This document shows, piece by piece, positions 1-38,484 of a DNA stretch of 64,000 nucleotides. The first letter of the stretch is position 1, and every line of letters begins with the position of its first letter. The translations under genes were made by a program, and so were the position numbers. Below the pieces are notes generated by a model. The model saw nothing but the letters and a program-made list of their open reading frames with translations, searched no databases and was not told the origin of the DNA. Origin of the DNA: Epinephelus fuscoguttatus (lineage: Eukaryota > Chordata > Actinopteri > Perciformes > Serranidae); assembly GCF_011397635.1 (NCBI RefSeq), contig NC_064771.1, positions 14,447,379 to 14,511,378 of the forward strand, in the 5' to 3' direction.

Positions 1-549
1 CAAAGAAGACGTCACTGAATAGACTGAATACCAGTGTGAAGGCTCAGTATTGAAATATGACAGGTGTGGCAAACAAGCTGTCAGCAAACAGGAAGGGATA
101 CATGTTTCCTGTCATAACATAGTTGTTTTTAGTGATTACCTTATATTGTTGTTGTGTTGCCTATTGCATTAATATGTATGTTATTAATGTACAGTATGAA
201 GCTTTTCAATGTAGCTTCATTATGTATATGTTTAACATAAAGTCAATAAAATCCAATTTTTCCGAAAGTAACAAGATGTCTCTGTTTAATGAATATAAAA
301 GAGAAGAGTTGGTATGTATTTCAACAAACATTTCAGGTATTTCTACATTAAATGTGCAAACATCTGAATGCACCCTAAAGCATGCTGACACCACAGATGG
401 ATTACAGATGATGCACCAATAAAACCCACCATAAGTATACATAAGATCAGTGAACAATACATTAAACACATGAAAAAAGAATCTCATAAAACCATTTAAA
501 AATTTTCTGCTTTTAAGAAACTGTTTTAAATCAATAAAGCAACCCGAAG

Positions 550-600
550 AGTTGCTGTGTAGCTGGTTGCACCAACGATAAATCCAAAAACACTGATCTC
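550..600 (+). other. THAP-type zinc-finger-like scrap
   Basis: In one forward frame the DNA reads SCCVAGCTNDKSKNTDL before a stop. This resembles the opening Cys-x(2-4)-Cys part of a THAP DNA-binding domain, found in THAP host proteins and in P-element and Kolobok transposases. The same scrap recurs near 6412-6462 and, with small changes, near 12205-12255, carried along by the segmental duplication. No His pair or complete domain follows, so it is at best a decayed fragment. A chance match in AT-rich DNA is possible. Confidence 0.3.
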
Positions 601-2128
601 TGATTTGTTTCCCTGCCATGTTGTAACAAAGGAAGAAGACAGCAGCTAGGGCTTTGGCTCCAAGCTATACACCACGCCAGCATCATGCTATAACCAACGC
701 CATGTCTCCTTTTGGGGCGGAAAAGTGCTAAACCTGTTGTGTAGGGGGTAACCATGGCTTTCACTGAAACTTGAGACACATAACATCCATGAATATTCAC
801 TATCAGTGTGGTAAATGGCTAAATGATGCTGGTGACAGTTTCTACTGATGGATAGCTGATGTTAGCTCACTAAATCTGAGCCTGCAGATCAAACAGTTAG
901 CTGTTAACAAGTTGCTTATTTATAGACAACACTTAGCCTGATGTTACCTGTCCAGATAAGCATTATTCACCTAGCTACTGTGTTGGGTATTTCATCAACT
1001 AAGATGTGGGAAGACTGAAGGGACATTCCAGCAATCAACCTTGATTTATTAAGCCATGACCAAGAAATAAATGAACACAGATGTTTCAAAATTACAATCT
1101 AAACACATGTGATTGCAGTGAGTGACATCAACAGGGTGTTTGGCTTTTTTTCCACCAAAAGTGGGCGAGGCTTTGGCATTTTGCAAAGTACCAATTTTTG
1201 CTGTTTGGTCTGGAGCTTGAAGTACACAGTGATGATGTACAGTAGAAAGTATCTGTGATATTTCTTGTTCTCTTCCCATCTATAATCACAGGTTCACACA
1301 GGAAAGAAATGTCTTCTAATCTACTTAAACATTTCAATTACATAATATTGGAAAACACCCTCAATATGTAATCATATGTATGTGTATGAAAACATTTTTG
1401 ACATAGTATCATTTCATCCCCTCCCCCAACTGAAACCGACAAAGATCCCTCTGGGCAACAGTTGAATACGACTTGAAGAAATCATCATCATTGGTAAGAA
1501 AAAAAAACAACAACAACAACTGCAAGGTCAGCATCATTGGTAAGAAAAAAAAAAACAACAACTGCAAGGTCAGCATCAAAAAGCTTTAGCAAAGCCATTC
1601 TTAAAACTTCACAATAGAAACAGAAGGTTAGTCGGGGGTTAACACTGCTGGAATTGGATCAGGGAACATCAGCTGAACATATTCTGAACTGACAAATCAT
1701 AGTTTAAACCTATTCAGTCAAACCACTGAGTAGACTGCAGAGGGTTGAGAAAAAAACAGATTCTGAAAACATTACGAATCCAAATGCACTGTTGTGGTTC
1801 AGTAATGATCAAGGGTCACGTATGCTTTTCTGGACTGGAAAACAAATTCAGAATCGTAGTGTTTCTGGGAGGAAAATAGTTTCAAGAGTACTCCACCCTC
1901 TCATGCATCACTGTGGGGACATAGACTAAATATAGCTTTCACTCCATTTATTTTGTCTTCTTTTGGGGCCAAACCATTTTGGTGTCTGAACTAAACATTT
2001 TTTATTTCTTTTAAAGTAGCCATCATTAAAGCAAAGAAGAAAAATATCAATACAACAGGTAATTTCAAACTAATGAACGGTTGTGTAGCCTATCTTAATG
2101 ACAGCCCTTTAAAAAAAAAAAAAACAGA

Positions 2129-2140
2129 GTGTGTGTGTGT

Positions 2141-2177
<37 letters not shown>
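2129..2177. repeat. (TG)n microsatellite
   Basis: About 24 TG units with one interruption follow an A-rich run. The matching place in unit 2 (7935-7968) has a shorter tract, so the locus varies between the two duplicate units. Confidence 0.95.
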
Positions 2178-2180
<3 letters not shown>

Positions 2181-2477
2181 TGGCACGTCTGCACATTCAA
2201 GTATTTTTGAATGCAGTACATGTCTATCAAAAGGATACTTGGTCCAAATATTTTAATGCTTACAAAGTATTTAATTTTATGTAATTAGAATGTAAAAAGT
2301 AGATCAGAAGTCAATTCTTTCTTGTGTGAAGCTTTGATTCTGGACAGGAAGAGAACAGAAATTCTTCGGGGAAGAATGACAGCTCTCCTACATGATCTCT
2401 GTGACACTCCTAGGACATGAGATCCAGCCCCACCTGTTTCACTTTGCCTCTGCCTGTGTGCATCCTTTTCTCTGCAG

Positions 2478-2640
2478 CCCTCAGGTGTTTCTCACTCAGG
2501 CTCCGCCTCTGTTTTGTGAGGCCTTTATCTACCGCAGCAGACTGTCTGATCTGGCAGAGCAGCAGAGGCAGGTCAACAGGAGACTGAAGGTCAAGAAAGC
2601 AGCCATTCATCCTGAGAGCTGAGACACAAACGGGTGCACC
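2478..2640 (+). other. Putative noxo1-A 5' leader exon with upstream reading frame
   Basis: A good acceptor (TTTTCTCTGCAG) precedes this stretch and it runs straight into the noxo1 start codon at 2641. It holds an open frame without an ATG in the proposed exon. The frame reads through CEAFIYRSRLSDLAEQQRQV and stops at 2620-2622, 18 bases before the noxo1 ATG. The stretch is kept in all three gene copies (8269-8431 and 19943-20105 on the minus strand). It may be only 5' UTR, or the last exon of a gene lost upstream. No family was recognised. Confidence 0.45.
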
Positions 2641-5336
2641 ATGGTCGGTGAACAGCGCTTTGTAATCAGTGCCCGCATGATTGGAGCCGTCCACAGGGAC
2701 TCACCAAAGCTCAAGGTGAGTTAAGACCTCAGACATTTTTATTTTAGATGTTAAATGTCTTTGCTGTATTTGAGAGAATCTCCTGATCCTTGATTTTTAT
2801 TTCTCTGTTTCCACAGATGTTCATGATATCTGTGTTATGGTCTGATGAGACTGAAGTGATTGTCTACAGGTCCTTCCAGGATTTCAAGAAATTTCATGTG
2901 AGTCCAAAAAACAAAATCCAAATAAGCGCTCAGTGTGCTGTTTATGTTGTATGAATAATCACTAATATATTTTTTTTCTTTTTCAAACAGAGGCAGCTGA
3001 AAAAGATGTTCCCTCACATGAACCCTTTCAAGAAAAGCGACAAAGTGATCCCAAAATTCACAGGTAAGATTATCTCTGTGTGTTTCAGGGTTTATTTAAA
3101 TGGTTTCCTACAAGCAACTGGGCATTTGCAGCCAGCAATAAGAGGAACTGCCAACTAAAACAGTTTATTTAGCTGCTCGTTCTCTGGGGTACAGTGTTAT
3201 CTCCTTAGAGCATCCTTTCATTTAAAGAAAATGCTTTATAAGTATAGTTCTTCTGCTCATCTTCTTCAGAGCCAGTGTGTTAACCAGTATGTCATTTCCT
3301 CTCCTCTATCCAGGGCAGGCCAGGAAGAGCAGCCTCCAGCAGAAAGGATCCAAGCGATCCGTCAAACGCATGAAGTTCCTGGACAGCTACTGTGACAAAC
3401 TGCTGAAATGTGACCAACCTGTGACTCAGAGCTCACAGCTCACACAGTTCTTCATGCCCAAAGACCATGACCTGCAGCCAGACTTCACCAAGAACAGGTA
3501 GCTTATCATGTCAGCGTGTTACTTCAAATCATGTGAGAGGCTGATAGAAGTTCTTGATTATTAAACGACTGACTTTTCTCTCGCACAGCATGATGATCCT
3601 GCTGTCTGATGACCTGCCTGATGGCTCAGGTGGAGGAGGTGGTGATAGGACTCGCCAGCATGCAGGCAACGTCACTCACCCGTTTGTCACCCAGACCTAC
3701 CGCTGTGTGGCTGCTTACGAGACAAAGGACACCAAGAATCGTCCATTTAAGGTGGCTGTGGACGAAGCTGGATGTCCTGATCAAAGACCCTGCAGGTCAG
3801 TTCTTCAGCTTTCATGCAGTCTTACTGAAAATCAGAAAGAAAAACCTTCCTTCACTTTCATTTCTGTTGTACTGAAAGTCTGTGTATCTCCTCTCCAGGT
3901 TGGTGGCTGGTGGAGAACGAGGATAAGCGTTGGGCTTGGTTTCCTGCTCCCTACCTGGAGCTGTGGGACACAGAGGATGATGATGGCGATGATGGATTCC
4001 AGCTTGCAGGTGAGAACTGACTGAATAATTGGACATTTGTAAGCCTAGCACTGGTGTGAGCTGTGACATCATTCAGCATTCATTGTGCCAAGCAATGCAT
4101 GCCACATGCACATACTTAACATTTTACTGTGAAGCCTGGTTGTTACAAACAGCCAACACTGGGGAGCGCTATTTAACCATCGGAAGTTAACATGCAACTG
4201 ATCCCTTGACTTAATTTTACCACATGTCTCAAGAGAGACTTTAGCTGTGCAGCAGTTCCTGATCTTGTTGCCTTGTTTGTGACCTTCAGGTGCCCTGTAC
4301 TGTGCCGTGAGGAGTTACAACACCAAGAAGGATGACGAGGTGTCTGTGCCCATTGGCTCTGTGGTGGAGGTGCTGAGGAAGTCTGACGACGGCTGGTGGT
4401 TCATCAGGTATCACAATCTTATCTGTCTGCAATACAAACAATGGAGGATAGGAATCAGGAGCACATTAAAAGAGGTTGTGGTGAAGCGTTTGTCAATGCC
4501 CCTGCATTGACTTTGCATGTAAACACATGACAAACGTACCTTTGTCAACCTAGAGAGAAAGGTGGTTTTATTAGTGTAAGAGTTTGAAGTGCTGGCAGCA
4601 GTATCAAATATCAAATAAATTCCTAAACTTCATCTAGGGTGGAGGATGTTTTGCAGGCTTGTAATGAATTCCTTTTCTTTGCAATCCTTGTTTCAGATTC
4701 AATGGCAAAGCAGGTTACGTGCCCTCCATGAACCTGCAGCCATACAACAACCCACGGGCCGGCCTTTACAGTCTGCACAAGCTGCACAGCTCCACTCTGA
4801 ACCTGGCAACTCAGGCTCCTCATCGACCCAGCAACAACAAAGACAGCCCACAGCGGGATTCAACAGGTCGGTCCAGAGGTGAGCCCAGTGTGCCCGGGCG
4901 TCTCCACAAGGCCCGATCTCTGGATGTCCTCTCTGAGACCTGGACGCAAACACAGATGGAGAGGGATGCCCCCACCTCAGACAGCACAAGCACCGAGATG
5001 AGCTTCTCCAGCTCCTCCTCAAGCAGCGAATCATCCTCAAGTGTAAGAGAGAGCCGTTCAGGCAGTCCTGCAGCCTCATTCCAGGCCAGTGTCAGCAACA
5101 GCGGGAGAAGCAGCCCTGATCTCAGCCTCTCTGACCGCCGCGGCTCCAACACCAGCTCTGACACCTCTGTATCTGTCAGCTCCAAAGGCAGTGAGACGGC
5201 TTCAATCGCTTCCAGGATGCCACCCAGACCCAAAACTGAGGAGATCCTGACCCGCTGCACCACCATGACCCGCAAGGCAGCCCTGGCCACCAAGACCCGG
5301 CTTCAGATTCAGCCAGAGTCCATCCACAGCCGCTAG
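2641..5336 (+). pseudogene. noxo1: NADPH oxidase organizer 1, copy A (one frame-breaking deletion)
   Basis: Coding exons are 2641-2715, 2817-2897, 2991-3063, 3314-3497, 3589-3795, 3899-4009, 4290-4407 and 4697-5336, all with GT-AG borders. Noxo1 is the cytosolic organizer that docks NOX1-class oxidases to membranes through its PX domain and recruits the activator NOXA1. Exons 1-4 encode the PX domain (RSFQDF motif), exons 5-6 the first SH3 ([20 protein letters not shown]), exons 7-8 the second SH3 (SDDGWWFIR, GYVPSMNLQPY), then a Ser-rich tail with PPRPKTEEILTR near the end. Exon 5 is 207 bases where the inverted copy has 209: GACGAGAAGC has become GACGAAGC, so the frame is lost inside the first SH3. 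All other exons keep frame; without this change the product would be 496 residues. Either a young pseudogene or an assembly indel. Confidence 0.8.
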
Positions 5337-5862
5337 GCCATCACAAGCCTTTGTTTAATTAAGTATACATGTAATATGTTAATTCTTGTCATACCAAAGA
5401 TTGTAGAGATATCAACCTGGACAAGATAAATGTATGTTGACCACTAGATGAAGTCTATCTATATTGAATATTTCACTCAGAATAAGAATAACAATGTAGC
5501 TTCAATGAAGCGTTAGAAGAAGCAGATGCAAGAAAACATATGTGACATTGTCACAGAGTAGTAAACAAATATTTTCTCTAGCTTTGAAGTCACTTAAGGG
5601 TAAATTTAAGTGGATTGTTGGAGTTGAAAGGGTAAAGTATTTACACTGAACTGTATTTCGTGTATCTCCCTTTAGTGTTTTTCAAATTTTGAACACATCA
5701 AAATCAGATCTGCACGTTCTGATATAAAAGATTATTTATCACTTTTTATTATATATTAATATTTTATTTGCTTTATTGTTCACAGCAGTAATTTTACTAT
5801 TTAATATGTTATAGTTTACCATCTTATATACTTTATTTGTTGGAGCTTGTTGTAAACAACAG

Positions 5863-7930
5863 CAAAGAAGACGTCACTGAATAGACTGAATACCAGTGTG
5901 AAGGCTCAGTATTGAAATATGACAGGTGTGGCAAACAAGCTGTCAGCAAACAGGAAGGGATACATGTTTCCTGTCATAACATAGTTGTTTTTAGTGATTA
6001 CCTTATATTGTTGTTGTGTTGCCTATTGCATTAATATGTATGTTATTAATGTACAGTATGAAGCTTTTCAATGTAGCTTCATTATGTATATGTTTAACAT
6101 AAAGTCAATAAAATCCAATTTTTCCGAAAGTAACAAGATGTCTCTGTTTAATGAATATAAAAGAGAAGAGTTGGTATGTATTTCAACAAACATTTCAGGT
6201 ATTTCTACATTAAATGTGCAAACATCTGAATGCACCCTAAAGCATGCTGACACCACAGATGGGTTACAGATGATGCACCAATAAAACCCACCATAAGTAT
6301 ACATAAGATCAGTGAACAATACATTAAACACATGAAAAAAGAATCTCATAAAACCATTTAAAAATTTTCTGCTTTTAAGAAACTGTTTTAAATCAATAAA
6401 GCAACCCGAAGAGTTGCTGTGTAGCTGGTTGCACCAACGATAAATCCAAAAACACTGATCTCTGATTTGTTTCCCTGCCATGTTGTAACAAAGGAAGAAG
6501 ACAGCAGCTAGGGCTTTGGCTCCAAGCTATACACCACGCCAGCATCATGCTATAACCAACGCCATGTCTCCTTTTGGGGCGGAAAAGTGCTAAACCTGTT
6601 GTGTAGGGGGTAACCATGGCTTTCACTGAAACTTGAGACACATAACATCCATGAATATTCACTATCAGTGTGGTAAATGGCTAAATGATGCTGGTGACAG
6701 TTTCTACTGATGGATAGCTGATGTTAGCTCACTAAATCTGAGCCTGCAGATCAAACAGTTAGCTGTTAACAAGTTGCTTATTTATAGACAACACTTAGCC
6801 TGATGTTACCTGTCCAGATAAGCATTATTCACCTAGCTACTGTGTTGGGTATTTCATCAACTAAGATGTGGGAAGACTGAAGGGACATTCCAGCAATCAA
6901 CCTTGATTTATTAAGCCATGACCAAGAAATAAATGAACACAGATGTTTCAAAATTACAATCTAAACACATGTGATTGCAGTGAGTGACATCAACAGGGTG
7001 TTTGGCTTTTTTTCCACCAAAAGTGGGTGAGGCATTTTGCAAAGTACCAATTTTTGCTGTTTGGTCTGGAGCTTGAAGTACACACTGATGATGTACAGTA
7101 GAAAGTATCTGTGATATTTCTTGTTCTCTTCCCATCTATAATCACAGGTTCACACAGGAAAGAAATGTCTTCTAATCTACTTAAACATTTCAATTACATA
7201 ATATTAGAAAACACCCTCAATATGTAATCATATGTATGTGTATGAAAACATTTTTGACATAGTATCATTTCATCCCCTCCCCCAACTGAAAGAGACAAAG
7301 ATCCCTCTGGGCAACAGTTGAATACGACTTGAAGAACTCATCATCATTGGTAAGAAAAAAAAAAACAACAACTGCAAGGTCAGCATCAAAAAGCTTTAGC
7401 AAAGCCATTCTTAAAACTTCACAATAGAAACAGAAGGTTAGGGTGTTAACACTGCTGGAATTGGATCAGGGAACATCAGCTGAACATATTCTGAACTGAC
7501 AAATCATAGTTTAAACCTATTCAGTCAAACCACTGAGTAGACTGCAGAGGGTTGAAAGAAAAACAGATTCTGAAAACATTACGAATCCAAATGCACTGTT
7601 GTGGTTCAGTAATGATCAAGGGTCACATATGCTTTTCTGGACTGGAAAACAAATTCAAAATCGTAGTGTTTCTGGGAGGAAAATAGTTTCAAGAGTACTC
7701 CACCCTCTCATCACTGTGGGGACATAGACTAAATATAGCTTTCACTCCATTTATTTTGTCTTCTTTTGGGGCCAAACCATTTTGGTGTCTGAACTAAACA
7801 TTTTTTATTTCTTTTAAAGTAGCCATCATTAAAGCAAAGAAGAAAAATATCAATACAACAGGTAATTTCAAATTAATGAACGGTTGTGTAGCCTATCTTA
7901 ATGACAGCCCTTTAAAAAAAAAAAAAAAAA

Positions 7931-7971
<41 letters not shown>

Positions 7972-10900
7972 TGGCATGTCTGCACATTCAAGTATTTTTG
8001 AATGCAGTACATGTCTATCAAAAGGATACTTGGTCCAAATATTTTCATGCTTACATAATATTTAATTTTATGTAATTAGAATGTAAAAAGTAGATCAGAA
8101 GTCAATTCTTTCTTGTGTGAAGCTTTGATTCTGGACAGGAAGAGAACAGAAATTCTTCGGGGAAGAATGACAGCTCTCCTACATGATCTCTGTGACACTC
8201 CTAGGACATGAGATCCAGCCCCACCTGTTTCACTTTGCCTCTGCCTGTGTGCATCCTTTTCTCTGCAGCCCTCAGGTGTTTCTCACTCAGGCTCCGCCTC
8301 CGTTTTGTGAGGCCTTTATCTACCGCAGCAGACTGTCTGATCTGGCAGAGCAGCAGAGGCAGGTCAACGGGAGACTGAAGGTCAAGAAAGCAGCCATTCA
8401 TCCTGAGAGCTGAGACACAAACGGGTGCACCATGGTCGGTGAACAGCGCTTTGTAATCAGTGCCCGCATGATTGGAGCCGTCCACAGGGACTCACCAAAG
8501 CTCAAGGTGAGTTAAGACCTCAGACATTTTTATTTTAGATGTTAAATGTCTTTGCTGTATTTGAGAGAATCTCCCTGATCCTTGATTTTTTTATTTCTCT
8601 GTTTCCACAGATGTTCATGATATCTGTGTTATGGTCTGATGAGACTGAAGTGATTGTCTACAGGTCCTTCCAGGATTTCAAGAAATTTCATGTGAGTCCA
8701 AAAAACAAAATCCAAATAAGCGCTCAGTGTGCTGTTTATGTTGTATGAATAATCACTAATATATTTTTTTTCTTTTTCAAACAGAGGCAGCTGAAAAAGA
8801 TGTTCCCTCACCTGAACCCTTTCAAGAAAAGCGACAAAGTGATCCCAAAATTCACAGGTAAGATTATCTCTGTGTGTTTCAGGGTTTATTTAAATGCGTT
8901 TCCTACAAGCAACTGGGCATTTGCAGCCAGCAATAAGAGGAACTGCCAACTAAAACAGTTTATTTAGCTGCTCGTTCTCTGGGGTACAGTGTTGTCTCCT
9001 TAGAGCATCCTTTCATTTAAAGAAAATGCTTTATAAGTATAGTTCTTCTGCTCATCTTCTTCAGAGCCAGTGTGTTAACCAGTATGTCATTTCCTCTCCT
9101 CTATCCAGGGCAGGCCAGGAAGAGCAGCCTCCAGCAGAAAGGATCCAAGCGATCCGTCAAACGCATGAAGTTCCTGGACAGCTACTGTGACAAACTGCTG
9201 AAATGTGACCAACCTGTGACTCAGAGCTCACAGCTCACACAGTTCTTCATGCCCAAAGACCATGACCTGCAGCCAGACTTCACCAAGAACAGGTAGCTTA
9301 TCATGTCAGCGTATTACTTCAAATCATGTGAGAGGCTGATAGAAGTTCTTGATTATTAAACGACTGACTTTTCTCTCGCACAGCGTGATGATCCTGCTGT
9401 CTGATGACCTGCCTGATGGCTCAGGTGGAGGAGGTGGTGATAGGGACTCGCCAGCATGCAGGCAACGCCACTCACCCGCTTGTCACCCAGACCTACCGCT
9501 GTGTGGCTGCTTACAAAGGACACCAAGAATCGTCCATTTAAGGTGGCTGTGGACGAGAAGCTGGATGTCCTGATCAAAGACCCTGCAGGTCAGTTCTTCA
9601 GCTTTCATGCAGTCGCTTACTGAAAATCAGAAAGAAAAACCTTCCTTCACTTTCATTTCTGTTGTACTGAAAGTCTGTGTTGTCTCCTCTCCAGGTTGGT
9701 GGCTGGTGGAGAACGAGGATAAGCGTTTGGCTTGGTTTCCTGCTCCCTACCTGGAGCTGTGGGACACAGAGGATGATGATGGCGATGATGGATTCCAGCT
9801 TGCAGGTGAGAACTGACTGAATAATTGGACATTTGTAAGCCTAGCACTGGTGTGAGCTGTGACATCATTCAGCATTCACTGTGCCAAGCAATGCATGCCA
9901 CATGCACATACTTAGCATTTTACTGTGAAGCCTGGTTGTTACAAACAGCCAACACTGGGGAGCGCTATTTAACCATTGGAAGTTAACATGCAACTGATCC
10001 CTTGACTTAATTTTACCACGTCTCAAGAGAGACTTTAGCTGTGCAGCAGTTCCTGATCTTGTTGCCTTGTTTGTGACCTTCAGGTGCCCTGTACTGTGCC
10101 GTGAGGAGTTACAACACCAAGAAGGATGACGAGGTGTCTGTGCCCATTGGCTCTGTGGTGGAGGTGCTGAGGAAGTCTGACGACGGCTGGTGGTTCATCA
10201 GGTATCACAATCTTATCTGTCTGCAGTACAAACAATGAAGGATAGGAATCAGGAACACATTAAAAGAGGTTGTAGTGAAGCGTTTATCAATGCCCCTGCA
10301 TTGACTTTGCATGTAAACACATGACAAACGTACCTTTGTCGACCTAGAGAGAAAGGTGGTTTTATTAGTGTAAGAGTTTGAAGTGCTGGCAGCAGTATCA
10401 AATATCAAATAAATTCCTAAACTTCATCTAGGGTGGAGGATGTTTTGCAGGCTTGTAATGAATTCCTTTTTCTTTGCAATCCTTGTTTCAGATTCAATGG
10501 CAAAGCAGGTTACGTGCCTCCATGAACCTGCAGCCATACAACAACCCACGGGCCGGCCTTTACAGTCTGCACAAGCTACACAGCTCCACTCTGAACCTGG
10601 CAACTCAGGCTCCTCATCGACCCAGCAACAACAAAGACAGCCCACAGCGGATTCAACAGGTCGGTCCAGAGGTGAGCCCAGTGTGCCCGGCGTCTCCACA
10701 AGGCCCGATCTCTGGATGTCCTCTCTGAGACCTGGACGCAAACACAGATGGAGAGGGATGCCCCCACCTCAGACAGCACAAGCACCGAGATGAGCTTCTC
10801 CAGCTCCTCCTCAAGCAGCGAATCATCCTCAAGTGTAAGAGAGAGCCGTTCAGGCAGTCCTGCAGCCTCATTCCAGGCCAGTTTCAGCAACAGCGGGAGA

Positions 10901-11654
10901 AGCAGCCCTGATCTCAGCCTCTCTGACCGCCGCGGCTCCAACACCAGCTCTGTCATCTCTGTATCTGTCAGCTCCAAAGGCAGTGAGACGGCTTCAATCA
11001 CTCCCAGGATGCCACCCAGACCTAAAACCGAGGAGATCCTGACCCGCTGCACCACCATGACCCGCAAGGCAGCCCTGGCCACCAAGACCCGGCTTCAGAT
11101 TCAGCCAGAGTCCATCCACAGCCGCTAGGCCATCACAAGCCTTTGTTTAATTAAGTATACATGTAATATGTTAATTCTTGTCATACCAAAGATTGTAGAG
11201 ATATCAACCTGGACAAGATAAATGTATGTTGACCACTAGATGAAGTCTATCTATATTGAATATTTCACTCAGAATAAGAATAATAATGTAGCTTCAATGA
11301 AGCGTTAGAAGAAGCAGATGCAAGAAAACATATGTGACATTGTCACAGAGTAGTAAACAAATATTTTCTCTAGCTTTGAAGTCACTTAAGGGTTAATTTA
11401 AGTGGATTGTTGGAGTTGAAAGGGTAAAGTATTTACACTGAACTGTATTTTGTGTATCTCCCTTTAGTGTTTTTCAAATTTTGAACACATCAAAATCAGA
11501 TCTGCACGTTCTGATATAAAAGATTATTTATCACTTTTTATTATATATTAATATTTTATTTGCTATATTGTTCACAGCAGTAATTTTACTATTTAATATG
11601 TCATAGTTTACCATCTTATATACTTTATTTGTTGGAGCTTGTTGTAAACAGCAG
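5863..11654 (+). repeat. Tandem duplication unit 2 (carries noxo1 copy B)
   Basis: Directly abuts unit 1 in the same orientation with no extra bases at the junction and repeats its entire length (5,792 bases against 5,862). The size difference comes from a missing 40-odd-base internal duplication, a shorter TG tract and small indels. Intergenic, intronic and exonic parts are all retained, so this is a genomic duplication and not retrocopying. Confidence 0.93.
8432..11128 (+). pseudogene. noxo1: NADPH oxidase organizer 1, copy B (several frame-breaking indels)
   Basis: Exons match copy A: 8432-8506, 8611-8691, 8785-8857, 9109-9292, 9384-9588, 9695-9805, 10084-10201 and 10492-11128. Splice sites are intact and exons 1-4 (PX domain) are in frame. 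Exon 5 is 205 bases against 209 in the inverted copy: one extra G in GATAGGGACTCG and five bases lost at GCTTACAAAGG. This disrupts the first SH3, although the 2 bases missing from copy A are present here. Exon 8 lacks three single bases relative to copy A, each in a short G or C run (GTGCCTCC, AGCGGATT, CCCGGCG), so most of the middle of the tail is out of frame before the original frame returns. A decaying duplicate is likely, but the homopolymer pattern is also what poorly polished long-read sequence would give. Confidence 0.8.
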
Positions 11655-13535
11655 CAAAGAAGACGTCACTGAATAGACTGAATACCAGTGTGAAGGCTCA
11701 GTATTGAAATATGACAGGTGTGGCAAACAAGCTGTCAGCAAACAGGAAGGGATACATGTTTCCTGTCATAACATAGTTGTTTTTAGTGATTACCTTATAT
11801 TGTTGTTGTGTTGCCTATTGCATTAATATGTATGTTATTTATGTACAGCATGAAGCCTTTAACAATGTAGCTTCATTATGTATATGTTTAACATAAAGTC
11901 AATAAAATCCAATATTTCTGAAAGTAACAAGATGTCTCTGTTTAATGAATATAAAAGAGAAGAGTTGGTATGTATTTCAACAAACATTTCAGGTATTTCT
12001 ACATTAAATGTGCAAACATCTGAATGCACCCTAAAGCATGCTGACACCACAGATGGGTTACAGATGATGCACCAATAAAACCCACCATAAGAATACATAA
12101 GATCAGTGAACAATACATTAAACACATGAAAAAAGAATCTCATAAAAGTATCAAAAAAAATTCTGCTTTTAAGAAACTGTTTTAAATCAATAAAGCAACC
12201 CAAAGAGTTGTTGTGTAGCTGGTTGCACCAATGATAAATCCAAAAACACTGATCTCTGATTTGTTTCCCTGCCATGTTGTAACAAAGGTAAATGGCTCAA
12301 TGATGCCAGTTACTACTGATGTTAGCCAACTGAATCTGAGCCTGCAGATCAAACAGTTAGCTGTTAACGGGTTGCTCATTTACAGACAACACTTAGCCTG
12401 ATGTTACCTGCTGATACCATCAAATGTACATGTCCAGATAAGCATTATTCAGCTACTGTGTTGGATTATTCATCAACTTAGACGGGGGAAGACTGAAGCC
12501 ACATGACAGCCATTAACCTTAATTTATCAAGCCATCACTAAGAAATGAATTCAGATACGTCAAAATTATAATGTAAACACATGTAAAATTGCAATGACAT
12601 CAACAGGATCTATGGCTTTCTTTCCTCCAAAAGACGGCGAGGCCTTGGTATTTTGGGAAGTACCAGTATTTAGTTTGAGGATCACACATTTAGCCATCAT
12701 TAAAACAAAGACGAAAAACATCAAGATAACAGGTGATTTCAAACTAATGAACGGTTGTGTAGTTGATCTTAATGACAGCTCTTGTTATATTACCTGAATA
12801 TAGATGTCTAGATAAGCATTATTCAGCTACTGTGTTGGGTTATTCATCAACTCAGACGTGGGAAGACTGAAGGGACATTCCAGCGATCAACCTTAATTTA
12901 TTAAGGTCTCACTAACAAATGTTTATTTACCAAGAAATAAATGAACACAGATGTGTCAAAATTATAATCCAAACACATGTGATTGCAGTGACATCAACAG
13001 GATGTTTGGCTTTTTTTCCTCCAAAAGGGGGGCGAGGTCTTGGCATTTTGGGAAGTACCAATATTTGCTGGTTGGTCTGAAGCTTGAAGATCACACACTG
13101 ATGACGTACAATCGAAAGTATCTGTGATATTTCTTGTTCTCTTCCCATCTATAATCACAGTTTCACACAGGAAAGAAATGTCTTCTAATCTACTTAAAGG
13201 AGCTATATGTAAGAAATCTAAAGCAAATAGTTGTAAAATCATCCTAATATGTCACAGAGACTAAGGAATAATGTTAATATAATATACTGATCTCACAGAC
13301 AACAATAGTACAGCCAGAATATTTGCATCTATGCAGACTCTGCACAGGGGGGCTCCCACACCCGGGATCAAACCGGCAACCCTCTTGCTGTGAGGTGACA
13401 GTGCTAACCACCACACCACCATGCCACCCTGCCTTTAAACAATTACATAATATTTAAAATAATCGATAAGTAATCATATGTATGTGTATGAAAACACTTC
13501 TGACTTAGTATCATTTCATGTAATAAACTCACTCA
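11655..13535 (+). repeat. Partial third duplication unit, gene-less and internally rearranged
   Basis: Starts with the same CAAAGAAGACGTCACTG phrase as units 1 and 2 and follows their first 1.4 kb, with more substitutions than units 1 and 2 show to each other. Internally, the segment around TCCAGATAAGCATTATTCA is present twice (near 12430 and 12813). Sequence matching 1990-2100 of unit 1 (AAACTAATGAACGGTTGTGT) is brought in next to it near 12740. The unit stops before any noxo1 exon. A 236-bp SINE is inserted at 13199. Confidence 0.8.
13199..13434 (-). mobile_element. tRNA-headed SINE with target duplication and preserved empty sites
   Basis: Read on the minus strand, the element starts GGCAGGGTGGCATGGTGG, has an A-box-like TGGTGTGGTGG and a B-box-like GGTTTGATCCC (RNA polymerase III promoter blocks of a tRNA-derived head), then an AT-rich body. 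TTAAA lies on both sides (13194-13198 and 13435-13439). Units 1 and 2 carry the uninterrupted site TCTACTTAAACATTTCA (near 1320 and 7180), so the insertion boundaries are exact and it landed in this unit only. The head is a very common teleost SINE type. The body could be a second element fused to it. Confidence 0.75.
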
Positions 13536-13539
13536 CACT

Positions 13540-14786
13540 TGCAACAACAGACATCACACATACACACACATACACACACACACACAAACTTGCCTGACCT
13601 TAACCTACACCTTGCCCTGCCGTCACCTTAACCCAGGTCATCACCCTAAAATGTAATGGTACATTCCAGGAGTTGCGTTTTGTCCCCTTAGGGAAGGCAA
13701 GTCCCCACAACGTCACTCTGTAAGCAGATTTATGGCCTCACCCTCACAGCGTAAGTAATACATGTCCACACATGCACACCCAAAGAGATAATACGCTGCG
13801 TGTGAGTGTATTATGAAATCAAGCAGCTGCAACAATGAAATGAAGTTACACAACAACAAACAAGTACGGAGAGAAGCAGAGAAAAAAACAAGAGGTTGGC
13901 TAATATCTGAGAGGAAGTGGTATTGTGTACAAAACTGTGACGTATGTCACCTTATCAGGGAGCTCAACAACATGTAGTTCTGATAAGTTCAAGAGACGAA
14001 ACCAAACCACAAACATGACTGGCTGGTGAGATCAGAGCTGCAGGGAGTTCACTATTGTTGAAATGATTTTATAATTCATTGTCACTCTAATATCTTAAAG
14101 GGTTGTCATTAAGATAAAGTACACAACTGTACAAGAGTTTGGAATCAGCTGTTTTATTGATGTTTTTCTGCTTTCTTTTAATAATTGCTATTTAAACAGA
14201 GATGAAAAAAAAACAAAACAGAGTAATTCAGACACCAAAGCTATTATTTACACTTTAAATAGCTGTAACCCAAATTATTAATGACTCAGTAATAGATAAA
14301 ATTGTTCAAACCTTAAACATCTACAGCAGTTATGTCCGAAAATATCATTTTTCATTCAAAAATGCTGTTCAGACACAAATGTGCCACAACAATACATGCA
14401 CACCTTTATTTCTTGGGTGCTGCTCTAATAAATTCAGCTATTTGAATTAGCAGCTTTGTCTCAAGAAAGGCTTTTTATTTATGCTGTCACACTACAGTAG
14501 ATAAGTGAGACGTACGAGAAGACAAAAATCTGACACTACATTGTAATAAATGGTGGATTACTTTTGTAGTTTAGTGTTGAGACATTTTTACTAGATATAT
14601 TTACTCTATTGTGGCTGCTCAGGAAAATTGTATCTTAACATGTTGCCTACTAAAACATCAGTCTATTTAGTTTCCCGTCTGTGCCTTTGCTTTAGACAGT
14701 CATTCTGGGATGTCTCATTCTTCTCAAAGTCTAAAAATACACGTCAAAGTGAATCTAACATATTTGTCCTTCTGCAACAGCTTATC
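13540..14786. other. Intergenic stretch without recognisable gene
   Basis: A CA-rich patch lies at about 13558-13590. It is followed by a segment containing AAGTCCCCACAACGTCACTC, which resembles the GTCCCCACAACG repeat near 25340 and is probably the same dispersed family. The rest is AT-rich with no coding signal or repeat that I could place. Confidence 0.6.
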
Positions 14787-15392
14787 TGTCATGATCCTGG
14801 GTTTTGGTTTCATATTGTTGTGGACTTTGTGTTCCTTTTTTCATGATGTTTATTTTGTAGATTCTCTCCTCATGTGACGCGTTTGGTTTCACTTCCTGTC
14901 TTTGTGTGTTAGTGTTTTCCCGCCTGTTTTCTGTCACACCTGTCTCATTAGTCCTTCCTTGTTCCCTGAGTCTTCCCTTCACGCCTGTTTTGTATTAGTC
15001 TTGTCTGCTCCACCCTTGTTGTCAGCCAATCCCTGTTTCTCTCCTTTTGCCCATGTCTTCCTTCTCCAGCTGTGTCTCGTCCTTGTGATTAGTCTTCTGT
15101 GTATATATATATCTGTGTGCCTCCCTTTGTCAGTCCATCTGTGTACTGTCTGTGTTCGTCTGCATACCTTGTTCATCATTCCTGCCATCATCTTGTGTCA
15201 TCCCCTGGTCTTCATGTCTTTTCGTGGTTTGTTTTTTAGTTTGGGTTTTTGTGTCTGCTCCCTGTTGGATTTGAGTTGCCTGCCTTTTTGGAAATCCTTG
15301 TACAGCCACATTAAAGCTCACCTTTTGTTGAAAACTTAAATCTGTCTGTTTGATCTGCATTTGGATCCACCTCTGAACTGACAGCTGTAACA
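14787..15392. mobile_element. Solo LTR of a retroelement (fossil)
   Basis: The 606-bp segment starts TGTCATGATCC and ends CTGTAACA, the TG...CA ends usual for long terminal repeats. Both sides carry the perfect 5-bp target duplication TTATC (14782-14786 and 15393-15397). It is T/C-rich with TATATATATATC near 15100 (possible TATA) and a late ACATTAAAGC (possible polyadenylation signal), as expected for an LTR read on the plus strand. No internal coding region adjoins it, so it is the single LTR left after recombination between two. Family is probably a teleost Ty3/Gypsy- or ERV-type. The perfect duplication suggests it is not very old. Strand is inferred from those signals only. Confidence 0.8.
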
Positions 15393-15397
15393 TTATC

Positions 15398-16494
15398 TTT
15401 GTAAACCTACCTGGAAAGCAAATACAGGTCAAGACTGAACCTGAGACTGATATGGTGCTCCCTCTGACAACCACCACCTGCCCAGTTTGATATATAGTTC
15501 ACTAGCAAGAATTCAGGGGGTGTAGTTGTTGAGGAATGGTGAATGGATGGAAGTGGGGGTGAAGGTTGAAGAGGGATGTCTTCTGTTAGGTTGGTCTGGG
15601 AGGATGAACTTGAGATCGGACGGAGGGAGACTCAGTGGGGGGTTCCATCTCAGGCGTTTTCCTACCCGAGCGGATTACAGGCCCCCCAGACAGTACCTAG
15701 AAAGAGACATGGGAGAGGTATGCACCAGACTGAATAAGAAGAGATGATGGAAGACAGGAGGAGAGGATGAAGGAATGTTGGTAGGGATGAGGTAGGAGGG
15801 GTGATGCGTGAAGGGAAGGGAAAGGGAGGGTAGGTCGAGAAATCTGAGACAAACGGAGCAGGATGGGTTGACCGGGTATAAGTAGGCTTGACAGGTAATC
15901 AGAGGTGTGGTTGAGATGTGGCCCTGCTCCCGAACCTAAGTTAACAAATTAACTTCATTTCCAGAGGTCCTTGGTCTTAAAGGTGTTGAAGACCCCTGGC
16001 TTACATTCAATGAAAACAACCACAACGGTGGATGTGCTTTCTGACACAACTGACTCTCAGCAGAGAAACGAATTGTGAATTTCTCAAGCAAATGATTTAA
16101 AAAAAAAAAAAATAAATAAGATATACTATCCTCTGTGATGCCCTGACAACTAACTGCTCCGGTTTTGTCTCATCTGCATTATTGCAACACATTATACTCA
16201 TGTCTTGGGGTATTTCCACTATAATTTTATTCCTATGGTGGGATTTTATGGTGTTTGTGATGTGTTTGTGATGAAGTTCTATTCATACATATTTGTGCTG
16301 GAACTTAACTTTTGTGCCACACCTAAAAGCCTTAATAAGAAAGACACTATAAATCAAGATTACTATTGTATTTATAAATACTTTTGACCAATTTCTTTCA
16401 TTAATACAAGACAAATAAAAACACTCCTCATACTGAGGAATGTGGCCATAGTGTATAAAAACATGGTGTCTCGCAGTGAGTGCATATGTTTATT
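15398..16494. other. Intergenic stretch, GA-rich centre
   Basis: Positions 15520-15950 are strongly G/A-rich (many GGGAGG and GGATGG tracts) and contain short open frames with no recognisable product. After 16000 the sequence is AT-rich. No gene, RNA gene or bounded transposon was recognised. Confidence 0.5.
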
Positions 16495-17385
16495 TATACC
16501 CACTCCTCTCCTATATATTCATTAAACAGACATCTTGTTACTTTGGTTAAATTTTGATTTTATTGACATGTTTATGTTAAACTTACACATTATGATGCAT
16601 TGTGAACAGGTTATGTAATGCAACACATACATACAAGGACAACTTTATACATATTCATATAATAAGCAGCATAGTAGATATAGAAGGTAACAAATAAGAT
16701 TGTCTCTCCTGTTTGCTGACATCTTATCTGCCACACCTGTCATATTTCAGTGCCTGAGCCTTCAAACTGGTATCCAGTCTATTCAGTGACGTGTTCTTTG
16801 CTGCAGTTTACAACAAGCCTGCTTGAGGCCATACGTTCATTTCCATTAGGAGAAACTGTTTACTCAAAGTAAATGAGATGGTGAAAAATAACATATTAAA
16901 ATGTAAAATTACTGCTGTGAACGACATAGCAAATAAAATATTAATAATTAATAAAAGGTGATAAATAATTTTTATATCATCAAACATTTCAGAACGTGCA
17001 GATCTGATTTCTATGTGTTCAAAAGAGACATATAAAATACAGTTCAGTGTAAATACCTAGGCACTTTAAACTCCAAAAATCCACCTAAATTTACCCTTAA
17101 GTGTCTTCAAAGCTGGAGACAATATTTGTTTACTGCTCTATGACAATGTCACATACGTTTTCTTGCATCTGCTGCTTCTAACGCTTCATTGAAGCTACAT
17201 TATTATTCTTATTCTGGGTGAAATATTCAGATGCCTTCCTCCATTTGATCAAATGGGACATATCTAGACTTCATCTAGTGGTCAACATACATTTATCTTG
17301 TCCAGGTTGATATCTCTACAATCTTTGGTATGACAAGAATTAACATATTACATGTATACTTAATTAAACAAAGGCTTGTGATGGC

Positions 17386-19942
17386 CTAGCGGCTGTGGAT
17401 GGGCTCTGGCTGAATCTGAAGCCGGGTCTTGGTGGCCAGGGCTGCCTTGCGGGTCATGGTGGTGCAGCGGGTCAGGATCTCCTCGGTTTTGGGTCTGGGT
17501 GGCACCCTGGGAGCGATTGAAGCCGTCTCACTGCCTTTGGAGCTGACAGATACAGAGGTGGCAGAGCTGGTGTTGGAGCCGCGGCGGTCAGAGAGGCTGA
17601 GATCAGGGCTGCTTCTCCCGCTGTTGCTGACACTGGCCTGGGATGAGGCTGCAGGACTGCCTGAACGGCTCTCTGCTAAACTTGAGGTTGATTCGCTGCT
17701 TGAGGAGAAGCCTGAGAAGCTGATCTCAGTGCTTGTGTTGCTTCCACTGCGTGCACGACCATCTGAGGTGGGGGCATCCCTCTCCATCTGTGTTTGCGTC
17801 CAGGTCTCAGAGAGGACATCCAGAGATCGGGCCTTGTGGAGACGCCCGGGCACAGCGGGCTCTCCTCTGGACCGACCTGCTGAATCCTGCTGTGGGCCGT
17901 CTTCGTTGTTGCTGGGTCGACGAGGCGCCTGAATTGCCAGGTTCAGAGTGGAGCTGTGCAGCTTACTCTGCAGACTGTAAAGGCCGGCCCGTGGGTTGTT
18001 GTATGGCTGCAGGTTCATGGAGGGGACGTAACCTGCTTTGCCATTGAATCTGAAACAAGGATTGCAAAGAAAAAGGAATTCATTACAAGCCTGCAAACTA
18101 TGGCAACATCCTAGACTGACTTTAGGAATTTATTTGACATTTGATACTGCTGTTGTCAGTACTTCAAATATTATTCTAACAAAACCATACTCTCTAGGTA
18201 GACAAACGCACGTGCACCTGATTCCTATCCTCCATTGTTTGCATTGCAGACAGATAAGATTGTAATACCTGATGAGCCACCAGCCGTCGTCAGACTTCCT
18301 CAGCACCTCCACCACAGAGCCAATGGGCACAGACACCTCGTCACTCTCCTTAGCAGAGAAACTCCTCACGGCACAGTACAGGGCACCTGAAGTTCACAAA
18401 CAAGACAATAAGCTCAGAAACTGCTGCACAGCTGAAGTCTCTCTTGAGACATGTGGTAAAATTAAGACAAATACACAGAATGACTAATAAAACCAGAGTG
18501 TACAAAGTTTTGGTAGAAAGGATCAGTTGCATGTTAACTTCCAATGGTTAAATAGCGCTCCCCAGTGTTGGCTGTTTGTAACAACCGGGCTTCACAGTAA
18601 AATGCTAAGTATGTGCATGTGGCATGCATTGCTTGGCACAATGAATGCTGAATGATGTCACAGCTCACACCAGTGCTAGGCTTACAAATGTCCAATTATT
18701 CAGTCAGTTCTCACCTGCAAGCTGGAATCCATCATCGCCATCATCATCCTCTGTGTCCCACAGCTCCAGGTAGGGAGCAGGAAACCAAGCCAAACTCTTA
18801 TTCTCATTCTCCACCAGCCACCAACCTGGAGAGGAGATAACACAGATTTTCAGTACAACAGAAATGAAAGTGAAGGAAGGTTTTTCTTTCTGATTTTCAG
18901 TAAGCGACTGCATGAAAGCTGAAGAACTGACCTGCAGGGTCTTTGATCAGGACATCCAGCTTCTCGTCCACAGCCACCTTAAATGGACGATTCTTGGTGT
19001 CCTTTGTCTCGTAAGCAGCCACACAGCGGTAGGTCTGGGTGACAAACGGGTGAGTGACGTTGCCTGCATGCTGGCGAGTCCCATCACCACCTCCTCCACC
19101 TGAGCCATCAGGCAGGTCATCAGACAGCAGGATCATGATGCTGTGCGAGAGAAGTCAGTCGTTTAATAACCATGAACTTCTATCGGCCTCTCACATGATT
19201 TGAAGTAACACGCTGACATGACAAGCTACCTGTTCTTGGTGAAGTCTGGCTGCAGGTCATGGTCTTTGGGCATGAAGAACTGTGTGACCTGTGAGCTCTG
19301 AGTCACAGGTTGGTCACATTTCAGCAGTTTGTCGCAGTAGCTGTCCAGGAACTTCATGCGTTTGACGGATCGCTTGGATCCTTTCTGCTGGAGGCTGCTC
19401 TTCCTGGCCTGCCCTGGATAGAGGAGAGGAAATGACATCAAGATTAACACGTTTGCTCCAAAGAAGATTTGGCTTTTTCCTAATGGTCACACATTTGGTC
19501 ACACAGTGATAATCTTACCCCTAAATTTTGGGATCAGTCTGTCATTTTTCTTGAAAGGGTTCATGTGAGGGAACATCTTTTTCAGCTGCCTCTGTTTGGA
19601 AAAAAATACATTTTTATTAATGATTATTCATACAACATAAACAGCACACTGAGCACTTGTTTGGATTTTGTTTTTCTTTTGGACTCACATGAAATTTCTT
19701 GAAATCCTGGAAGGACCTGTAGACAATCACTTCAGTCTCATCAGACCATAACACAGATATCATGAACATCTGTGGAAGTAAAAAAAAACAAAGGATCAGA
19801 GAAATATTCTCAAGTACAGCAAAGACATTTAACATCTAAAATAAAAATGTCTGAGGTCTTAACTCACCTTGAGCTTTGGTGAGTCCCTGTGGACGGCTCC
19901 GATCATGCGGGCACTGATTACAAAGCGCTGTTCACCGACCAT
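17386..19942 (-). CDS. noxo1: NADPH oxidase organizer 1, copy C (intact)
   Basis: Minus-strand exons are 19868-19942, 19689-19769, 19519-19591, 19230-19413, 18932-19140, 18715-18825, 18269-18386 and 17386-18049. They total 1,515 bases and 504 residues, with no internal stop and matched intron phases. The start ATGGTCGGTG at 19942 follows a conserved leader. Noxo1 recruits the activator NOXA1 and positions NOX1/NOX3-type oxidases for superoxide production. The PX domain is about residues 1-130 (RSFQDF), the first SH3 about 175-231 ([21 protein letters not shown]), the second SH3 about 247-302 (SDDGWWLIR, GYVPSMNLQPY). A Ser-rich tail follows, with PPRPKTEEILTRCTTMTRKA near 467-486, matching the Pro-rich end of mammalian NOXO1. 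At 504 residues it exceeds the roughly 370 of human NOXO1, mostly through the tail. No p47phox-type autoinhibitory region was recognised. Relative to copies A and B it has eight extra residues (GRARSGSN) in the tail. It is the likely functional copy. Confidence 0.92.
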
Positions 19943-20105
19943 GGTGCACCCGTTTGTGTCTCAGCTCTCAGGATGAATAGTTGCTTTCTTGACCTTCAGT
20001 CTCCCGTTGACCGGCCTCTGCTGCTCTGCCAGATCTGAGAGTCTGCTGCTGTAGATAAAGGCCTCACAAAACGGAGGCGGAGCCTGACTGAAAAACACCT
20101 GAGGG
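19943..20105 (-). other. Putative noxo1-C 5' leader exon
   Basis: Counterpart of 2478-2640: a minus-strand acceptor CTCTGCAG at about 20106-20113, then a leader ending at the noxo1-C ATG. Its open frame (CEAFIYSSRLSDLAEQQRPV) is retained, but most differences from copy A change amino acids. That argues against a conserved protein and for plain 5' UTR. Confidence 0.45.
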
Positions 20106-20122
20106 CTGCAGAGAAAAGGATG

Positions 20123-29320: not shown

Positions 29321-29373
29321 CAATGATGCCAAACTCATGCGTCTATGCTGCTGGAAACTTGCAACAAAGAGTC

Positions 29374-29540
29374 ATGGCGGAGAGGAAGAAAAGGTCTGAC
29401 GTGTGGCTTCATTCCATGAAGAAAGGTGACAAAAGTGCTACTTGTATTGTCTGTAATATGATCATTTCAAGCAAGGGTGGAAACACCAACATGCTGAAAC
29501 ATCTTTCTGCACAACATGGGCTCAGATTCCATGAACACTA
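29374..29540 (+). mobile_element. BED zinc-finger fragment (hAT transposase or ZBED type)
   Basis: From the ATG at 29374 the frame reads MAERKKRSDVWLHSMKKGDK, then CIVCNMIISSKGG and LKHLSAQHG. That is a BED finger: a Trp near the start, Cys-x2-Cys, and a later His-x(4)-His (HLSAQH). The frame stays open to 29625 but the product ends soon after the finger, with no dimerisation or catalytic region. It is a fragment of a hAT-family transposase gene or a domesticated ZBED relative. No inverted ends flank it. Confidence 0.6.
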
Positions 29541-29789
29541 TGTATGTGACACTCTACGCAGCAGTGCCACTGCTTCCCAACAGAGCAGCATGTCTTTTAC
29601 CAAGTGTAAATATCCCATGGTATGAGAACATTAATGCCAAATGGGCAGGCTAAGCAGTTTTTTCCTTTGACTAAGAAAATAGTTGAACATTGAAGCTTTT
29701 GCACACACCACCGATATACAGAATTTGTAATTGCAATGGTATCAATAAAATCATATCTCTACAACTATTGTACAGATTCCCTTTTTATT

Positions 29790-32658: not shown

Positions 32659-35600
32659 TCACCGGAACTCATAGATGGCTGCACTGTGCTCGGGAACGTG
32701 GGTGAGGTTTAGAGACTGGTACCTGCGGAGTAACAACGCACGACATGTTAGATTATGTATATGAGTTAGAAGCACACAGTACACGCTTGTTTGCAGCTTT
32801 GTGACAATCCTTTTTTTTTTAGATAATCTAAAAGGTTTTAAGTGGTTTATTTAGTCTAAAGACATAATCCTTACATTTTTTTAATGAAATCCAAATCCCT
32901 TTTTGATGTTATATGGTCAGCATTTTTTTCCCGCAATAGCCATTCAATATATTTTCCTTCAGCAATTACTTCCTCATGTATCAGTTATTACTGTTAGTGG
33001 TGGAGTCCGCCATTGCCACCCTGGGTTCAAACTGCCTTTGCATGCACGACAGCACGTAAACTAGTGTTATTTTATTTCGCTGATATCAGCCTCACTTTAC
33101 TCTTCATTGCCTTCACACCATATTAAAGCTGGATTAAGTTACTGCTAATGCAAACGGAACATCTGATTGTTACTCCCATGTTAAAAGCATTCAACTGGTG
33201 AAATACAGCGTGGCTTTTATAGTGATATTATCTGACAAAAATCAAAATTACCAAACTCTGAGATACATGGTTTTCACGATATAGCATATATAGCTATATT
33301 GTTGCTTTAAAATGTGCCTGTTGAGAGCCAGGCATTATATCAATATATGAGACTAGATATTGTCTTTGACTTTGGACATTATAATATCCTAAGTGGTGTC
33401 TTGACCTGGCTTTAGAGCCTAGAAAACATTGGACAGAAGGCGTCCGTGGCCAAAAATGGTCCCAGCCAGATGCCAAAAACTGCCACACAGTTATGAGACA
33501 GACGGCCAGATGGTGACGTTATGTGTTATGTTACGTTGTTGGTATTAACATGTATCTTTGTGTTTTGTCTTTTACAATACAATGACATTTTATTGACAAT
33601 TACTTGTTTGGTTGTGAAATGGTTGCCATTAGGGCTGCAATTAACGATTATTTTCCATTGTTGACTAATTTGTCGATTATTTCTTCAATTAGTCGACTAA
33701 TCATTTTATCAAAAAATTTGTTAAAATGTTGAAAAATGTCGGTCTGTCTCTCCCAAACCCCAACATTATGTCATCTAATGTCTTGTTTCGTACTCGCGCC
33801 ACTCACATTTTAGTTCACCGTCATGGGAGAGTGTGTAAAGCTGTCAATATTTGAACGTAACAAGCTGCAATAAGAGTATTTTGGAGTACTTTTTCATACT
33901 TTTCTATAAAAAATTACTCAAACCGATTAGTAGACTACTAAAATAGTCACCAATTAGACAATTAGTCATCGATTAGTCAACTAATTGTTGCAGCCCTAGT
34001 TGTAATCAGACTGCCACAACGTGATGTCCACTCCACAAACTAGTATTATTCGGCACCCGTTTTTTTTTAAAAAATATAAAAACAGTTTACGCCATGTATA
34101 TCTACATGTAAATTACATTCATGTCTCATTGTTTTAAGCCTGTGGCATTTGTAAGAGCCTAAATTATTTCTCCAAGCTGTCTTTATTCACACATTGGAGA
34201 AGTAGCCTTCAGGGCTTTTTGATAAAGTCAGGTGACGTAGTATCAAGAGTGATAACTTCCACATAGATGGGAAATTGTGGTGGATGAATGGACAATGCAC
34301 AGGACTTTTACCCAGGAGCCCGGAGTTTGACTCTTGTGTGCGTCAACATTAGTTTATACTGTTAGTGTCGTATATTGATTTTGCTAGGATGCTCAGGAAC
34401 TATATTTGAACCATAATGGGATGTCTTGATTGAATGTTTAAACAATGATCATTCAATGTCTCAATGTTTGCTGGGAGCCTGCATTACAGTAAAGTGATGT
34501 AATTTTCTGAGCTTACCAGACTGTTCTAGCTGTTCTATTATTACCCCTTTGTCACTTAGTCATTATATCCACAGTACTTATGATTATTTATCAAAAAATC
34601 TCAGTGTGTAAACATTGGTGAAAGCACCAGTAGTCAACCCTACAATATCTTTTTAATATCCATATTGAGGTATATGGTCCCAAAATACTGTGATTATGAT
34701 TTTCTCCACATCTCCCAACCCTGTGAAAGTCTGAATAATTGACTTCCCTTGACTCCACTGACACAACTGCAATCCAGTTTGTCAAAAACAACCTCAAAAT
34801 GAGAGGCTTGACTAAAATAAAAAGAAGGATGTTGACATCTGAAAGCCAATAGTAAATTATGCTTGAGGAACAAAATGAATCGAGGGCTGACCACAGCCTG
34901 GGCTGATGTTCATGCTCAGCTTTTTCTTCATGTGTGGTTTGCGGGGTTTCACACCAGAGCTGGTGAAAGGCAGCAAAGAGCAAAGAGTCGATCCAATAAA
35001 CAAGCTATTTATATGTCACATAACAACATTCACATTGCAGTTAATACTGTTTTCAGTCCCCACAATAAATGCCGATGTCATAGCAAGTATGACAGAAGGG
35101 CTGGCTGTTAATCATTTTCCACTTTTTAAAAACAACATGAAACAGAGGTATTCTGCAGTCGGAGAGGGAAACAAAACTGCCTCCAAGTATTTGGTCAAGG
35201 ACGGGAAGACCTGATGGAATGAAATCAGAGGGTTTTTGAAACAATAGCCAAACCATTATGTGTGAAGGGAGTTGAAAGAAATGCCAAAGAATGTCAAATG
35301 AAAATGTGAACACTAAAGATAGAGTGCAAGCAGGCTTCCGTTTGCTTATAGCCAGGCAGCACAGCTCTATAAATCAAATGTAACAAACTGAGGGTTAGAT
35401 TGTCCTGCTTCATCCATATAAGGTTACACAGTCTAACTTGGAGCTGTTCAGAAAAAGCCACATTCATCATCTTCTATTCATCTGAGCAAGGGGAAATTTA
35501 GAATTAAGGGCACCTTGACAGACGCTGCACAAAGCTGGAAATTTTGTCTGTAAAGGACTTTGCCTGCCCTGATTTTCCAGCTGGTCTGGGTTTTGATCCA

Positions 35601-37821: not shown

Positions 37822-38484
37822 GGCTCCCGCTTCGCTGGCTGGGCACCGACCGCGGTCAATTGCCGTCTGGGCGAAGGACTCTGTCGGCGTCTCTACGGAG
37901 AGGTGGAAGAGCACTGTAGGGTCCACCAACATTCAAATCCCCCCCGATACCTCCACAGTTTCGTTTACCAGGCGCCAAGCTTCCAGAAAAGTAAGTGGAC
38001 TTCGACGCGGCGCCGTAGGCAGCAGAATCCGCCCTTCTGATTGGTCGGTTTGGTTCACCTTTCGAACATCTTCAACGCTCATTGGTTCAACCTGCGGAAG
38101 GCTTTATGGGAATATCTGGGTGTAGTTTGTTCCTGTCGTGTTGGGACTGGTGTTGGGGTGCGTAGAAGCACTCATAAAACTACATTTCCCAAAAGTAGTA
38201 GTACCTGTGACGTTACTACAAGCAAAGAAGGTCACACGCGTGCTTTTGAACTCAGGAGCTGCTACCTGATAGAAGAGTAAGAGCTATGCCGCAGTAAATA
38301 GAGACATATCAACTTTATACAATTAGCTAGTACAGTATGAACAACAATTTATGCTAATACGTAATATATTTACTCGCATAAAAATATGGCGTTTAAATAA
38401 TTAACGAACTGGTGTCAGAAAGAGGTAGCCTAGCCTGTCAGCTAGCATTTCTTCCAAACATTACATCTTCTCAGCACTGCAGCT
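37822..38484. promoter_or_regulatory. Shared divergent promoter of gid4 and atpaf2
   Basis: The two start codons are 663 bases apart, facing away from each other. The interval is much richer in CpG than its surroundings. It has two reverse CCAAT boxes (GATTGG at 38039 and CATTGG at 38080) and ACTACATTTCCCA at 38179-38191, which fits the ZNF143/SBS consensus ACTACAATTCCCA except for one base. No TATA box near either start. These are typical of housekeeping bidirectional promoters; the same gene pair is divergent in human. Confidence 0.6.

Follow-up and report, generated by a model that had tools for sequence, protein, structure and literature searches.

In Epinephelus fuscoguttatus, the NADPH oxidase organizer gene noxo1 forms a compact cluster in which one intact copy lies inverted beside near-identical tandem copies whose reading frames are broken as written. 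The cluster is an ordinary local gene duplication with one intact, probably ancestral member. It was analysed within a stretch of 64,000 nucleotides (the window), and its features are collected in Table 1. The most probable reading is that noxo1 expanded locally in the place it usually occupies in fish, next to gid4; the intact copy (C) would be the ancestral and working gene and the two tandem copies (A and B) would be recent pseudogenes.

Comparison of the window with itself yields a direct repeat with a period of 5,862 (1-6494 against 5863-12288, 97.5% identity counting gaps) and an inverted match of 20122-16496 against 2461-6177, which falls into three pieces with 92.5%, 92.0%, and 82.0% identity. 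Chance is excluded for repeat matches of such length. The original prediction of a direct-plus-inverted cluster, consisting of two near-identical tandem units of about 5.8 kb and a diverged inverted copy, is thus borne out by the self-comparison. Over 6,409 aligned bases, global alignment of the direct pair gives 65 substitutions (45 transitions and 20 transversions) and 20 gaps. Over the initial 1,000 bases the units of A and B differ at a single site, and further on by approximately 1%; some such quiet stretch would occur by chance with p of about 0.03, which is weak evidence. Inverted repeats of approximately 90 bases (1260-1349 and 2273-2362, 81%) flank about 1.1 kb of intergenic DNA and look like the termini of a small DNA transposon.

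Table 1. Features of the noxo1 cluster and its neighbourhood, in window coordinates.
Feature	Position	Strand	Extent or basis
3′ end of a further noxo1 copy (probable)	1..315	+	UTR with an AATAAA at 245, and sequence past it; shared with the 3′ ends of all three genes
noxo1 copy A	2641..5336	+	Eight exons; alignment of A, B, and C, splice borders
noxo1 copy B	8432..11128	+	Eight exons; alignment of A, B, and C
Supposed partial third unit: gene B 3′ UTR and downstream flank	11655..12288	+	AATAAA at 11901
Diverged right-flank continuation	12289..13519	+	Pieces match unit positions 810-1199, 2017-2109, 949-1329, and 1335-1417
Inverted copy, whole	16496..20122	-	Runs from 180 bases ahead of the ATG and ends shortly beyond the poly(A) signal
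noxo1 copy C	17386..19942	-	Eight exons, frame intact; alignment, domain matches
gid4 (C17orf39)	32662..37932	-	Match to solved GID4, E 2.5e-24; exons by tblastn
tom1-like gene	from 42.4 kb	+	
mir-33 precursor (RF00667)	60666-60733		56.6 bits, Rfam; sole match in the window at gathering thresholds

Eight exons were located by eye on copy A and transferred to B and C through the alignment, with the border between exons 4 and 5 chosen to satisfy gt-ag. The reading frame of C is open for 504 codons plus the stop, and C alone of the three gene models reads through, in agreement with the expectation of only one intact copy. In copy A, two bases are missing after 3763 in exon 5, so that the frame meets a stop in exon 6 (codon 216) and yields a product of 215 residues in which the PX domain is present. 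In copy B, a gain of one base and a loss of five in exon 5 lead to a stop at codon 201, also in exon 5, and exon 8 carries three single-base losses. Judged against C, A carries a single frame-breaking exon indel and B carries five, all of them different. Among the indels common to A and B relative to C none breaks the frame, the two exon gaps measuring 3 and 21 bases. As written, both A and B terminate ahead of the second SH3 domain, which leaves the suggestion of a raised oxidant output through duplication of the gene unsupported.

Membership of the NOXO1/p47phox organizer family is upheld by the PX domain and the SH3 pair of C, and identity as noxo1 by the fish noxo1 neighbour gid4, which lies beside the cluster at 37.9-32.7 kb. 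The Pfam PX domain scores 33.1 bits in C and 35.7 bits in the product of A (cut-off 21.6), and SH3 scores 50.1 bits in C, where Pfam detects the second SH3 domain only. Residues 165-299 of C align with the tandem SH3 pair in the sequence of a solved p47phox structure; this pair is kept in C, but not in A or B as written. The best overall match of C is the longer p47phox construct, with residues 13-299 matching across PX and both SH3 domains at 129.8 bits; the PX region by itself scores 55.1 bits with the solved NOXO1 structure 2l73 and 37.6 bits with the solved p47phox PX domain, 1kq6. For the proline-rich C-terminal tail, the p47_phox_C match in C reaches 25.2 bits, below the cut-off of 27. 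Medaka NOXO1 is reported to retain an autoinhibitory region, as described in the available portion of the source (PMC2121648), so absence of this region would not separate NOXO1 from p47phox.

The phasing of the units adopted earlier arose from a cut at the arbitrary start of the window. In the stretches scanned, the first AATAAA or ATTAAA downstream of the stop lies at 6107 for A and 11901 for B, in both cases beyond the supposed unit boundary, which indicates that the first 315 or so bases of each "unit" belong to noxo1 as its native 3′ end. C bears a homologous AATAAA at 16564 in its homologous tail, and an AATAAA also lies at 245, near the start of the window. Because the window start corresponds to a noxo1 3′ end, the window appears to open inside the 3′ end of a further copy, the body of which probably lies to the left of the window edge. 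The count of three noxo1 genes therefore holds for the models within the window, but the total for the array is probably higher. The gene-less partial third unit of the original prediction dissolves under the corrected phase, as it coincides with the 3′ end of gene B. It differs by 2.4-2.5% from its counterparts after A and at the left edge, and was rejected as a separate duplicate, being a phase effect of the cut at the window start. Homology to the unit continues past 12288, in pieces, as far as 13519 (unit position 1417), with 6-16% substitutions varying by piece. This right flank also contains an extra 236 bases (13199-13434) that are absent from the units, part of which resembles a tRNA-derived SINE.

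In favour of the tandem pair being an assembly artefact, with two alleles or one doubled unit set in a row, the window start repeats the A-B junction almost exactly, with 1 substitution in 632. The A-B difference of about 1% also falls inside the range of allelic differences. However, the units follow one another in a row and their flanks do not behave as those of alleles would: the sequences following A and B diverge by 2.4% over 632 bases and then by 6-16%, too much for two alleles, which would stay alike. The flank after B is further set apart by the additional 236 bases and by a partial repeat inside it, and the window consists of A, C, G, and T only, with no N runs. Allelic false duplication was rejected as the leading account on the divergence of these flanks, and an artefact is unlikely. 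A less doubtful alternative accepts the duplications as real and takes the frame breaks of A and B to be uncorrected consensus errors, in which case the genes of the array may all function. Where copies are nearly identical, reads have no unique placement, and consensus errors could therefore stay uncorrected. Consistent with this, A and B have no break in common, and the breaks are small (many of 1-2 bases), with several in homopolymers; 13 of the 20 A-B gaps fall within 2782-4896, all 13 of 5 bases or less and several again in homopolymers. C is free of breaks over its 1,515 bases, and so are the exons of gid4 and the tom1-like gene over approximately 1,356 bases, as if breaks were confined to the near-identical copies. 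The chance of all six landing in A and B is about 0.017, a value compatible with either errors or pseudogenes. In favour of decay, frame-breaking exon indels number six between A and B, against 13 substitutions, and none between A and B together and C, against 49 substitutions (Fisher p 0.00025).

Against consensus errors stands the observation that the A-B substitutions, which are less error-prone, likewise show no detectable constraint, the 13 exon changes comprising 10 nonsynonymous and 3 synonymous ones (omega 0.97, with a wide interval of 0.25-5.5). The A-B substitution rate is also equal in exons and noncoding sequence (p 0.85). Purifying selection on the exons of A and B is thus undetectable, a weak indication at 13 substitutions in all. 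Moreover, the most similar part of the array (1-1000) is without small indels, the reverse of what failed polishing would leave. On the sequence as it stands, real decay of A and B appears moderately more probable than consensus errors, which nevertheless form a serious alternative. It is also conceivable, though very improbable, that the broken copies are used, with PX fragments of approximately 200 residues competing with NOXO1 for membrane lipids and so damping oxidase assembly. Exchange with C would then keep some exons alike.

The divergence of A and B from C is patchy, as expected after gene conversion. Noncoding sites at which A and B both differ from C amount to 6 of 387 in 3498-4204 and 126 of 1,251 elsewhere. 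Counted over all 3,119 sites, such changes range from 0 to 27 per 100-site block, and none of 5,000 shuffles in which exons and noncoding sequence kept their separate rates matched the variance among blocks. The longest stretch free of such changes spans 225 sites (3648-3877); 19 of 5,000 shuffles matched it, a less extreme result than that of the block test. A run test restricted to noncoding sites gives p 0.00015, a value that is overstated because its 168-site run skips exon 8, where C differs. The block of highest divergence hinges on the alignment of intron 3, for which pairwise alignment gives 14.9%. In intron 7 and the 3′ region, noncoding divergence of C is approximately 7-8%. Old divergence overlaid by recent gene-conversion patches best explains this patchwork; a single uniform age for C was rejected, the divergence being patchy. 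The tandem pair, at approximately 1%, is younger than the split of the inverted copy, which reaches up to about 15% in unexchanged stretches, and the predicted order of these two events is retained. Nine of the ten changes in exon 7 between A and B together and C fall within 16 bases (4317-4332 in A) in the second SH3 domain, where they alter a short loop; an unexchanged old patch and selection are candidate causes.

The exons of gid4 were located in a tblastn search whose query was an approximate human sequence. Pfam searches of nine and eight neighbouring open reading frames gave GID4-, VHS-, and GAT-like matches and a few others, all below cut-off, and an NCBIfam search of three neighbouring frames gave no matches. 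The mir-33 gene usually sits within an intron of srebf; a search with the SREBP1 bHLH domain as query found nothing at E below 0.05. Elsewhere in the window, an open frame at 29284-29619 encodes a BED zinc finger (30.2 bits in Pfam, cut-off 20.6), perhaps of a hAT-type transposon, and an inverted repeat of approximately 390 bases (62295-62683 and 62865-63244, 84.5%) lies near the right end.

gid4 shares the strand of C and lies upstream of it, and A and B are on the opposite strand. According to the available portion of the source, noxo1 adjoins C17orf39 (gid4) in Tetraodon and zebrafish, and a Takifugu C17orf39 model includes NOXO1-like SH3 and tail regions, which its authors read as a NOXO1-like C17orf39 (PMC2121648). 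We instead read the Takifugu model as two neighbouring genes on the same strand that were fused by prediction, which suggests one shared direction. C is probably ancestral and A and B derived, because C, unlike A and B, is on the strand of gid4 and downstream of it; this polarity is drawn from the strand of gid4 and one old gene model rather than from a tree. Starting from C, a duplicate would have arisen in inverted orientation on the 3′ side of C, tail to tail. The inverted copy would then have become a head-to-tail array, probably by unequal crossing-over within the repeat-rich sequence that separates the copies. Of this array, the window includes at least two complete members, and a further one probably lies to its left. 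Patches would later have passed between the array and C by gene conversion.

The reverse order, in which an array formed first, an inversion-duplication took part of it, and a recent doubling followed, had been proposed on the ground that C spans the unit junction. That "junction" sequence consists of the 3′ UTR and poly(A) region of the gene itself, and since any gene copy carries the noxo1 3′ UTR, the crossing of the boundary by C is no sign of an array older than the inversion. C is also without the intergenic part (unit 316-2460), and hence contains no true array junction. Some right-flank pieces are old (6-16%), about as diverged as the noncoding parts of C that have changed least, which would fit an early array, but this order of events is quite unlikely, slightly more so than an assembly artefact. 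On the favoured reading, C would encode the working organizer, with the PX domain directed to membrane lipids, the SH3 pair to p22phox, and the tail to the activator, the roles established for the organizer family.

The locus resembles the fish noxo1-C17orf39 locus in its gene family, its neighbour, and its arrangement of PX, two SH3 domains, and a C-terminal tail, as given in the available portion of the source (PMC2121648). The same portion gives single organizer isologs for zebrafish and medaka and names no noxo1 duplicates (PMC2121648), whereas three copies, and probably more, are present here. A literature search limited to open-licence papers found no report of a noxo1 cluster in fish. 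The human gene NCF1 (p47phox) has the near-identical neighbouring pseudogenes NCF1B and NCF1C, with a small exon deletion and gene conversion. The present cluster likewise places an oxidase organizer beside near-identical broken neighbours, with gene conversion probable between copies, but it concerns the NOXO1 paralogue in another animal group, has a compact direct-plus-inverted layout, and carries different breaks in each broken copy.

The locus thus offers a compact cluster of organizer genes in which an intact gene stands beside recently broken copies and exchange between copies is visible. If the breaks are real, they would parallel the human NCF1 pseudogenes; if they are errors, the cluster would exemplify near-identical assembly copies miscalled as pseudogenes. 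In either case, expression studies of noxo1 in E. fuscoguttatus could mix copies if they use sites common to all three.
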